A stretch of DNA of 48,077 nucleotides. Source: Terriglobia bacterium (GTDB lineage: Bacteria > Acidobacteriota > Terriglobia > Bryobacterales > Bryobacteraceae). A program made the translations under genes and the position numbers. The notes beneath the pieces are model-generated. The model did no database searches and was not told the origin of the DNA. It was given only the letters and a program-made list of their open reading frames with translations. Shown piece by piece: positions 27,110-30,421 of this stretch (position 1 is the stretch's first letter; each line of letters starts with the position of its first letter). Location: the NCBI GenBank assembly GCA_020073615.1, contig JAIQEX010000037.1, forward strand, positions 1 through 48,077, read 5' to 3'.

Positions 27110-27781
27110 TCACCGGACGGCCTGCGCGACCGCCAGCATCGACTGGAAGACCAGCAGGCCGTCGCAGGACCCCATAAGCGGCTCGGTGGCACGCTCGGGA
27201 TGCGGCATCATCCCCATGACGTTGCGCGCGGGGTTGAGGATGCCGGCGATATCGCGCAGCGAGCCGTTGGGATTGTCCAGGTAGCGGAAGACGATGCGGT
27301 CGCCGTCGGCGAGTTCGTCGAGCGTGCGCTCGGCGGCGTAGTAACAGCCCTCGCCATGGGCGATGGGCATGCGCAGCACCTGCCCTTCTTGGGCCGCGCT
27401 GGTGAAGGGCGAGCCGGTGGTTTCCACGCGCAGGCGGACTTCGCGGCAGATGAACTTCAAGCTGCGGTTGCGGATGAGTGCGCCGGGCAGGAGCCCGGCC
27501 TCCACCAGGATCTGGAAGCCGTTGCAGATTCCCAGCACCAGGCCGCCGGCGGCGGCGAACTCGCCGACCGCCTTCATGACCGGCGAAAAGCGGGCGATGG
27601 CGCCGCAGCGCAGATAGTCGCCATAGGCGAAACCGCCCGGCAGGATGACGGCATCGACGCCGCCCAGCGACCGCGAATCGTGCCAGATAAACTCCGCCGG
27701 CTGCCCCAGGTTGCGGCTGACGGCATGGAGAGCGTCGTGATCGCAATTACTGCCCGGAAAAACGATGACGCCAAATCTCAT
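27110..27781 (-). CDS. purQ: Phosphoribosylformylglycinamidine synthase I, glutaminase subunit
   Basis: A 223-residue class I glutamine amidotransferase supplying ammonia to PurL. It starts [20 protein letters not shown]. The nucleophile Cys lies in [20 protein letters not shown], and the His/Glu of the triad in [36 protein letters not shown] is the family block before it. It is the first gene of purQ-purL-purF-hutH. The small PurS subunit, which usually lies directly upstream, is absent: 28 to 274 bases upstream is a non-coding repeat and hypF. No good ribosome site is seen before the ATG. Confidence 0.96.
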
Positions 27782-27844
27782 GAGAAATGTTTTGGGGAGG
27801 TACACCTGTATTTTATCAGAGCCGGGGCGCGGGATGTGGCTTTC

Positions 27845-28055
27845 CACCGCCGAGGCGCCGAGACGCCGAGAATTGAGGGTTGCCCGGCGCTCTCGGCCAC
27901 CTCGGTGTCGGTACCTGTTGGGTGCAAGGGCGAGCGAGCGCTGCGAAGCAATTCGCGCTTTTTCGATTCCTTCACGTTCGCGCGGCGAGCCATCCGAACA
28001 CGCGGAGAAAACCAATAGGCTTGGATTCGCTCGGCGTCTCGGCGCCTCGGCGGTG
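27845..28055. repeat. 211-bp element with perfect 26-bp terminal inverted repeats
   Basis: The left end 27845-27870 and the right end 28030-28055 are exact reverse complements over 26 bases (core CGAGGCGCCGAGACGCCGAG on the left). Pairing stops sharply at both outer and inner edges. The 159 bases between include a C/G-rich left part and an A-rich stretch (about 28000-28020). Both strands have frames, but they translate to Arg/Ser/Pro-rich runs without domains. The ends resemble the widespread '...GCGCCTCGGCGGT...' repeats of environmental bacteria. It may be a MITE-like or REP-like mobile repeat, or a very long stem formed in RNA. Confidence 0.75.
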
Positions 28056-28147
28056 ACATCATATCGACGGATCACGGACAATCCGCAAGCTGGTGACCGC
28101 GGCGCTAGTTGGCTATGATGGCGGAGGGGCGAGGTCTGGCGGAATCC

Positions 28148-30421
28148 ATGGTGAGCGCCCGGTCCATTCGCGTCCGCGGGGTGGTACAGGGCGTCGGCTT
28201 TCGACCGTTCGTGTTTCGCCTGGCGCACGCCAATACGTTGGCCGGCTGGGTTTTGAACGGCGAAGAAGGAGTCGAGATCTACCTGGAAGGCGCCGAGCCC
28301 GCGCTCGAGGCCTTCCTGCGCGATCTCGAGGCCCAGCCGCCGCCCGCCGCGCGCATCACCGCCATCGACGTCTCTCCGGCGGCGCCCTGCGGCCTGACCG
28401 GGTTCATCATCCGCGAGAGCCGGCGGCAGGGCGCGCCGACGGTGCGAATCTCGCCCGACCTGCCGGTATGCGGCGAGTGCCTGCGGGAACTGTTCGACCC
28501 GGGCGACCGGCGCTACCAATACCCCTACATCAACTGCACCAACTGCGGGCCGCGCTACACCATCGTGCTCGCGCTGCCCTACGACCGGCGCCACACCACC
28601 ATGAGAGACTGGCCCATGGACCAGTATTGCGCGGCGCAATACCACGACCCCGCGGACCGGCGTTTTCATGCGCAGCCGGTGGCGTGCCCCGTGTGCGGGC
28701 CGCATTACCTGCTGCGCGCCGGCGGCGAAATCGTGGAAGGAGACGGCGCCGCCATCGGCCGCGCCGCCGCCCTGCTGCGCGCCGGCGCAATCGTGGCCGT
28801 CAAAGGACTGGGCGGTTACCATCTGGCCTGCGATGCCCGCAACGGCGCCGCCGTGCGCGCCCTGCGCGAGCGCAAATTCCGCAAGGAGAAGCCATTCGCG
28901 CTCATGGCGCGGGATCTCGAGGAGGCGCGGCTGCTGGTGGAGCTGGCCCCGGAAGCCGAAGCGGCGCTCGAATCGCTCGAGCGCCCCATCGTCCTGGCCC
29001 CGGCCCGGCTGGAGCTGGAGGGCGTGGCGCCGGAAAACGACGAGCTGGGCGTGATGCTCCCCTACACGCCGCTCCACTACCTGTTGTTCGCCGGGGATGC
29101 TCCGCGCGCCATGGTGCTGACCAGCGCCAACCGTTCCAACGAGCCCATCGCTTACCAGGACGAGGATTCGCGCGAGCGGCTCGGCGGCATCGCCGACGCG
29201 TTCCTGGCCGGAGAGCGGCCCATCGCGCGCCGCGTGGATGACTCCGTGGTCCGCGTGGGCGCCTTCGGACCGGCGGTCCTGCGCCGCGCCCGCGGCTACG
29301 CCCCCGGCGCCGTGGCGCGCCTGCCCAGCGAGCGCCCCATTCTGGCCGTGGGAGCGGACCTGAAGAACTCCGTCACCCTGGTGGTCGAGGGCCAAGCCTT
29401 CGTCAGCCAGCACATTGGAGACCTCGAGCATTACGAAGCGTTTCAGGCCTTCACGGAAACCATTCGCGACCTGGCGGCCATGTACGACGTTCCCTGGGAC
29501 CGCCTGCTGGTGGTCCACGACTGCCATCCGCAGTACGCGTCGACCACTCACGCCCTGGGCCTGGCCGCTCGGGAGCATGGCGCGGTGCAGCACCATCGGG
29601 CCCATCTCGCTTCCGTACTGGCCGAGCGCGAAGCCTGGGACCAGCGCGTGGCCGGCGTCAGCTTCGACGGCACCGGCTACGGCGACGACGGAACCATCTG
29701 GGGCGGCGAAATTTTCGTGGGCAGCGTGGCCGCGGGTTTCGAGCGCGTGGTTCACCTGCGCCGCGCCGTGCTGCCGGGCGGCGATGCCGCCGCGCGCTAC
29801 CCCGTCCAGGCGGCCGCGGGATTTCTCGCGCAAATGGAGGGACTGCCCGATTTCACCGACGCGCCCTTTCGCTTTCCCGCGCGCTATCGCCAGGCGCTCT
29901 CGCTCGCCCGCAAAGGCGTGCGCTCCTTCACCACCACCAGCGCCGGCCGGCTGTTCGACACCGCCGCGGCGCTCGCCGGCTTCACGCGGCCGATCAGCTT
30001 CGAGGGCCAGGCCGCCATGTGGCTGGAGCATATCGCCCGCCGGCATAAGGGCTCCGGCGGCGCGTATCCGTTTCCACTGGCCGGCGGCGAGCTGGACTTC
30101 CGCCCATTGCTTCAGGCCGTGGTCGCAGACCGGCTTCGCGGCGAAGACCCGGCCGCCATCGCCCGCCGCTTTCATCGCGCCATGGCGCAGGGCCTGTCGG
30201 ATGCCGTGCTCGCCGTCGCACGCGAACAGGGGCTGCGCACCATTGTCCTCTCGGGCGGCGTGTTTCAGAACGAATTGCTGCTTGCGGATCTTGGTCCCCT
30301 GCTGCTGGGCGCAGGCTTCCAGGTTTGGACCAACCGCGCCGTGCCTCCCAACGATGGAGGCATCAGCCTGGGACAGGCGGCGCTGGCCGCATTCGGCCGT
30401 TTTGACAAAGTCTCTACTTGA
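28148..30421 (+). CDS. hypF: Carbamoyltransferase HypF
   Basis: A 757-residue maturation factor for [NiFe] hydrogenase that makes the carbamoyl group later turned into cyanide for HypE. Domain order: acylphosphatase (about 1-90; [19 protein letters not shown]), two zinc-finger-like segments (about 105-190), a YrdC/SUA5 domain (about 195-375; [20 protein letters not shown]), and a Kae1/HypF C-terminal domain (about 385-757; [31 protein letters not shown]). The first finger has C108, C111, C130 and C133. In the second, the first Cys is replaced by Asp ([10 protein letters not shown]), while C161, C180 and C183 remain. No other hyp genes or hydrogenase are in the window. The start is uncertain (28118 or 28148). 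It converges on the DUF2911 gene with an 8-base overlap. Confidence 0.92.

Follow-up and report, generated by a model that had tools for sequence, protein, structure and literature searches.

The 211 bp repeat element located between a PurQ-like gene and hypF in the window (the whole 48 077-nucleotide stretch of Terriglobia DNA that was analysed) is, on balance, probably a non-autonomous, MITE-like member of a class of one-gene elements built around GxxExxY nucleases; it contains no gene itself and would have been moved in trans. More tentatively, and with confidence that falls somewhat short of even, we propose that GxxExxY/PDDEXK_3 nucleases drive a categorically new and widespread class of minimal mobile elements, of which the window repeat would be a gene-less derivative and which would run parallel to a class carrying 23S_rRNA_IVP genes. 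The traits of such a class, put forward with the same reserve as part of this proposal, would be a single nuclease gene, clade-specific inverted arrays, the absence of both a transposase and a target duplication, and frequent residence in tight gaps within operons.

Architecture, copies and distribution of the window element

The core of the element (27845–28055, 211 bp, aligned with 18 other copies) is bounded by two arms of 26 nt each, at 27845–27870 on the forward strand and 28030–28055 on the reverse strand, which are 100% complementary and are separated by 159 nt. The left arm consists of CAC followed by three CGCCGAG units with a spacing of 8 bp and the right arm is an inverted copy of it, such that each arm contains three units and the two ends form inverted arrays of 7 bp motifs. 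The exact 26 bp terminal inverted repeats described in the first-pass annotation are thus borne out: the pair is the longest perfect inverted repeat at spacings of up to 400 bp in the whole window, where the runner-up is 13 nt, and 30 first-order Markov resamplings of the window gave perfect inverted repeats of 15 at most. The sharp borders that had been placed at the arms did not hold. In 19 aligned copies, including that of the window, bases are also conserved outside the arms, namely GGCTTTC on the left (27838–27844 in the window, forward strand) and a stretch beginning ACATCTTATCGACGGAT on the right, and the true ends lie further out, at CCGTAATCCGT and ACGGATTACGG in intact copies. The window copy has kept its right outer end, ACATCATATCGACGGATCACGG (28056–28077, forward strand, with the end at about 28077), and its left outer end is not recognisable.

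The flanking genes are divergent and agree with the location originally given: a PurQ-like glutamine amidotransferase gene (27113–27781, reverse strand; PF13507, GATase_5) on one side and hypF (28148–30421, forward strand, start codon assumed; PF22521, PF17788, PF07503 and PF00708) on the other. The names PurQ, RpoC and MoxR as used here rest partly on reading of the sequences by eye. Open frames of 94, 117, 309 and 1021 amino acids cross the element, the longest being an upstream extension of the purQ frame, and none is supported as a gene by any result obtained here.

The copies of the end, which it had been suggested should be counted, are numerous and dispersed. BLAST with 231 bases as query returned 136 matches to the window element in its own genome (G000; 6.96 Mb in 252 contigs). 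At the 40 copy loci of this genome (L001–L020 and L023–L042), with an end counted if it has no more than seven mismatches of 26, both ends are present at 28, one end at 11 and neither at one (L017). Since the best copies share the interior with the window element (∼80% identical), and not the ends alone, they constitute one repeat family. The length from outer arm to outer arm ranges from 70 to 221 bp in 38 distinct elements of G000, its genus-mate G100 and G014, and the array arms rank among the best-conserved parts of the aligned copies. Intact copies of the window subfamily start with CCGTAATCCGT and end with ACGGATTACGG, the five longest spanning 246–262 bp; a second group in G000 consists, as judged by eye, of arrays only (L027, L030, L032, L035, L038, L039, L041 and L042). 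Short array elements also occur in tandem, with a period of 144 bp beside a GxxExxY gene (L181, 3100–3720, minus strand) and a period of 167 bp in L231 (747–1270). Another repeat, of ∼76 bp (L190, 12189–12264), has dozens of matches in G100; as these fall on both strands, it is probably palindromic.

The element differs in presence between species. The stretch 27826–28090 has no counterpart in the purQ–hypF gap of G100 (locus L097), the flanks of which are 88–89% identical and align up to 27825 and again from 28091. G100 likewise lacks the element at the sites orthologous to two other copies, which lie on contig C16, so that it is absent at all three of the sites examined. Together with the many copies in its own genome, this absence supports the earlier suggestion of a mobile repeat. 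The sequence found in G100 in place of the element differs, and the diverged intergenic DNA gives no readable junction; in the purQ–hypF gap, the place is filled by a different stretch containing GGGTGGGGCATGC (L097, 1229–1323). Comparison of the flanks for target duplications, also proposed in the first-pass annotation, yielded a weak 6 bp signal: adjacent 6-mers are identical at five or more of six positions in three of the six copies that possess both outer ends, and 171 of 20 000 shuffled pairings were as good. This gives a weak hint that the window subfamily may generate a 6 bp target duplication; the window copy itself lacks the left outer end. As for a matching transposase, none was found, and what was found is a matching element that carries a nuclease gene.

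GxxExxY genes, their flanking arrays and insertion sites

We tested the expectation that GxxExxY genes lie between inverted arrays of this type. The genome of the window contains two PF13366 (GxxExxY; TIGR04256) genes, one (L021) between 46 bp inverted arrays that are 89% complementary and the other (L022) between a weak 21 bp pair below the inverted-repeat cut-off. Their units are CGCGGAG- and CGCNAAG-like and neither is the exact unit of the window element; if its mobilizer is a nuclease, it would thus have been lost, be unassembled or act across unit types. Nearly the same ends as those of the window element surround a GxxExxY gene in the family-mate G016 (L045, with three and one mismatches of 26), and ends with four and three mismatches of 26 surround another, with an open frame and an adjoining MoxR-like gene, in a Bryobacterales genome (L100).

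The association between arrays and genes extends well beyond these genomes. We fetched 80 named GxxExxY loci from many phyla, of which 77 were usable after three had been dropped owing to short flanks; among the loci fetched, GxxExxY is annotated in many bacteria and some archaea. In 48 of the 77 loci, the best inverted match between the flanks lay above the 99th percentile of the 358 same-locus controls, and in 35 (hand count) it lay above that of 770 mismatched pairs; the latter result indicates that arms match their own partners more closely than they match the arms of other elements. The strict motif is present on both sides at 47 of the 80 loci, with 418–706 bp between the outer array ends. 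At the phylum level, 27 of 29 further loci, with the position of the gene assumed from the locus layout, scored above the 95th percentile of a set of 110 controls, although a single control reached 46.5. Most arms of GxxExxY loci are ACCRCRGAG-like, and the motif spacing in the class is ∼8–11 bp. Within the order, ten or more array-pattern sites occur in five of 26 PF13366-positive genomes and in none of 74 negative genomes (Fisher p of ∼9e-4, calculated by hand), the largest count among the latter being three; the reversed-pattern control for these counts represents the same periodic array and hence is not an independent control. An inverted repeat above the cut-off was present at only ten of 24 genes in the window's own genome and the order. 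Gene-less short array pairs were read in G014 and G087 (L221–L240), and gene-less versions are also present in G000. According to automatic ORF calls, the neighbouring gene is co-oriented with the GxxExxY gene in 51 of 71 cases upstream and 52 of 68 downstream, so many of the elements are probably transcribed with the operon.

PF13366 GxxExxY proteins are small PD-(D/E)XK nucleases (PDDEXK_3), and we know of no function assigned to them. The catalytic residues are conserved: in an alignment of 80 sequences (A2), the E, D, K and Q of the PD-(D/E)XK site are invariant and the second E is present in at least 90%. Modelled with AlphaFold2, the L021 core reached a mean pLDDT of 93.2. The best Foldseek match of this model is SSO0001 (4ic1; E value of 2.1e-3, probability 1.00, TM score 0.55, r.m.s.d. 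13), which we take to be a Cas4 protein; lambda exonuclease is also among the best matches, none of which reaches an E value of 0.001. A sequence search for relatives of solved structure returned none up to an E value of 1. PADLOC gave no match for L021 and a weak Cas4 match for L022. With L099 as query, none of 50 697 phage records and eight of 72 556 plasmid records matched, and two other GxxExxY queries matched five and eight plasmid records; phage- or plasmid-borne spread is thus not apparent from these records.

Across the genes compared, the unit sequence follows the nuclease clade. This set comprised 112 GxxExxY genes located by motif; genes lacking the search motifs, genes with identical cores and genes with short flanks had been left out. 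An inverted repeat above the cut-off flanks 74 of them, with C-N-R-AG units in 64, C-N-R-AT units in four and other units in six; the remaining 38, including L022 and L100, have none above the cut-off. On a quick IQ-TREE tree, one change is needed to account for AG versus AT genes, all four AT genes falling in a single 15-gene clade (SH-aLRT 96) devoid of AG genes, with 64 AG and no AT genes outside it; the tree is based on few columns and has many open forks, and the AT label rests on four genes. With unlabelled genes scored as a separate state, four changes are needed for AT, and 500 of 500 shuffles were equally low. One contig (L159) carries an AT-type gene and, in addition, GAG-type arrays beside the match that brought the contig in.

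Gene-bearing elements are present or absent at defined sites in related species. In G275, the rpoB–rpoC gap contains a 470 bp element, CACCAC..GTGGTG (L291), with an open frame that begins inside the left array. We searched 47 genomes of the genus and read 32 species at this site, which is empty in 30 (by flank distance, 23 having been read base by base) and filled in G275 and G451. The flanks of G275 are up to ∼97% identical to those of empty species and ∼92% identical to those of G451, which points to two probably independent insertions or to the transfer of one of them. The right junction in G275 is clean (GTGGTG followed by AATCC, compared with CGACG followed by AATCC in the empty site). 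On the left, the gap is neither of the same length nor of the same sequence at the two filled sites; this side has diverged and the exact junction may be blurred. No target duplication was seen at the filled rpoB–rpoC site, and array-bounded elements have no detectable target duplication more generally: direct repeats of 4–10 nt at fixed offsets did not rise above shuffled pairing in 58 such elements (16 of them added by hand), nor did an earlier fixed-offset search of 42 elements give anything above this level. For L050, no empty-site comparison could be made, since in the relatives the flanks are split between contigs, and for fabD–fabG of Sphingomonas the plasmid collection held no close relative with which to make one.

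The cphB–cphA gap (Peptidase_S51 and Cyanophycin_syn domains) is nearly empty in some species and contains GxxExxY elements in five of 30 loci compared as well as in L374; gene-less hairpins also occur there. Eight loci at this gap (L337, L340, L341, L344, L346, L354, L357 and L358) carry a 23S_rRNA_IVP gene or one similar to it; three of the eight genes were checked and belong to PF05635. The arrays around these genes, which lie in a protein-coding operon, are inverted and built of other, GATTCCAGATTCCA- or GCGATTTGCGATC-like units. The IVP-type genes in this gap are a parallel element class, located where sister species have GxxExxY elements. Short hairpin-like insertions with tandem CGCAGATAAACGCGGATG-, ACAGGAT- or CACGAATTACGCGAATTT-like units, leaving no room for a gene, are present in L342, L343, L347 and L359. 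The moxR–DUF58 gap, which separates a MoxR-type ATPase gene from a DUF58 gene, is another recurrent site, occupied by GxxExxY elements with differing units in several Acidobacteria (L021, L181 and L186) and empty in G014 (L182) and G089 (L180). L098, L099 and L100 probably belong to the same gap, their neighbours having been judged from sequence; L100 ends before the second gene.

Proposed mechanism and competing explanations

In the mechanism that we propose, the nuclease would bind the array units at both ends of an element, with several protomers per array, and would cut either the element ends or a cruciform that the ends can form. Repair would then insert copies of the element at intergenic sites, leaving no target duplication. 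Copies that lack the gene would be mobilized in trans, and it is such a nuclease that would have moved the window copy. When an element lies within a transcribed operon, pairing of its inverted arrays could give an RNA stem that RNase III might cut out, an excision that would soften the insertion in the manner of 23S rRNA intervening sequences; as the window copy lies between divergent genes, this last part does not apply directly to it.

What counts against a nuclease as the mobilizer is that the window subfamily has outer CCGTAATCCGT ends and a weak 6 bp duplication, unlike the array-bounded elements, and both features would suit an ordinary DDE transposase. Further points against it are the differing units at the two GxxExxY genes of the window's own genome, the genes that lack an inverted repeat above the cut-off (38 of the 112 compared, with only ten of 24 having one in the own genome and the order), the four-gene basis of the AT label and the diverged left side of the filled rpoB–rpoC sites. 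The main rival to the nuclease is an unseen transposase of the DDE kind, which would recognize CCGTAATCCGT and produce a 6 bp duplication; the window subfamily would be its ordinary MITE, with a GxxExxY-type hairpin captured inside. We consider this unlikely, although it is clearly the most serious of the alternatives. It would account for the conservation of the outer ends in several copies and for their near-confinement to the family (the genus, with two genomes, has the exact CCGTAATCCGT sequence 13 times, ten times in such elements and three times standing alone), for the three copies of six with similar adjacent bases and for the eight array-only copies of G000 (L027, L030 and others), which lack the outer ends. 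However, six copies underlie the duplication, the aligned copies have the array arms among their best-conserved parts, and no larger element or separate IS bordered by CCGTAATCCGT is present in the loci of ∼3 kb around the 13 sites.

Two non-mobile explanations appear far less probable. In the first, the GxxExxY protein might be a regulator or a defence nuclease and the arrays its operators or processing sites, with gene-less copies spread by recombination only. The open frame that starts inside the left array of L291, the frequent co-orientation of neighbouring genes and a fold nearest to a defence-related kind of exonuclease could all be read in this manner, but we hold it to be improbable, given the presence and absence of elements at rpoB–rpoC and cphB–cphA, the inverted order of the arrays on the two sides, the dozens of gene-less copies, the PADLOC outcome (nothing for L021 and only the weak Cas4 match for L022) and the scarcity of L099 matches among phage and plasmid records. 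Least credible of all is a REP-like structural repeat or RNA element (a terminator or RNase III target) that is kept for its hairpin. The window element does fold strongly as a single strand (z of −6.4), and nine aligned copies retain most of its outer stem, no pair being broken in more than two of them. The long RNA stem envisaged in the first-pass annotation nevertheless gains no support from covariation in these nine copies (an unfavourable term of +3.68, with pairing kept by changes on both sides in four of 63 pairs); no Rfam family matched 27700–28200 up to an E value of 1, the element lies between divergent genes and it is absent at orthologous sites. Any RNA role is thus at most putative, and we rejected a REP-like or RNA element as the main reading. 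A gene-less element that would be mobilized by a GxxExxY nuclease remains the best explanation of the window segment.

Relationship to known systems

Numerous short repeats, most of them under 50–100 nt, have been reported in Solibacter Ellin6076, and the portion of that report available to us names no engine for them (PMC3174227). In one paper, GxxExxY figures only as an annotation beside a reverse transcriptase gene. In the open literature that we searched, no account of GxxExxY genes as mobile elements was found. If GxxExxY proteins mobilize their flanking arrays, a testable function would be at hand for a large orphan family and a common class of unexplained short repeats would gain an engine; a nuclease without a transposase or integrase would then be driving its own spread into operons such as rpoB–rpoC.

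The window element resembles MITEs in that it is short and non-coding, has terminal inverted repeats, exists in many dispersed copies and is present or absent between relatives. It differs in that no transposase partner was found and its ends are tandem arrays, and in that the target duplication is weak in the window subfamily and was not detected in its array-bounded relatives. The REP/REPIN repeats, of which RAYT (TnpA-REP), a Y1 HUH transposase, is the partner, offer a second parallel, with gene-less palindromic repeats and a nuclease gene family that is flanked by repeats of the same kind; here, the partner is a PD-(D/E)XK nuclease (PF13366) and the units are tandem arrays. A parallel with casposons and Cas4 is offered by SSO0001, the best Foldseek match of the GxxExxY model and a Cas4 protein; a difference is that no Cas1 gene was noticed in the elements. 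The intervening sequences of 23S rRNA (S23/IVP) are similar in size and layout. That of Coxiella is about 430 nt long, with one small gene and terminal inverted repeats that form a 28 bp stem, and its excision by RNase III has been shown (PMC4990558). The elements described here contain a different gene and occupy intergenic sites between protein-coding genes, as does the window element between the PurQ-like gene and hypF, rather than rRNA helices, and their excision by RNase III is a proposal; PF05635 genes occupy analogous elements in the cphB–cphA gap, which is also used by GxxExxY elements.
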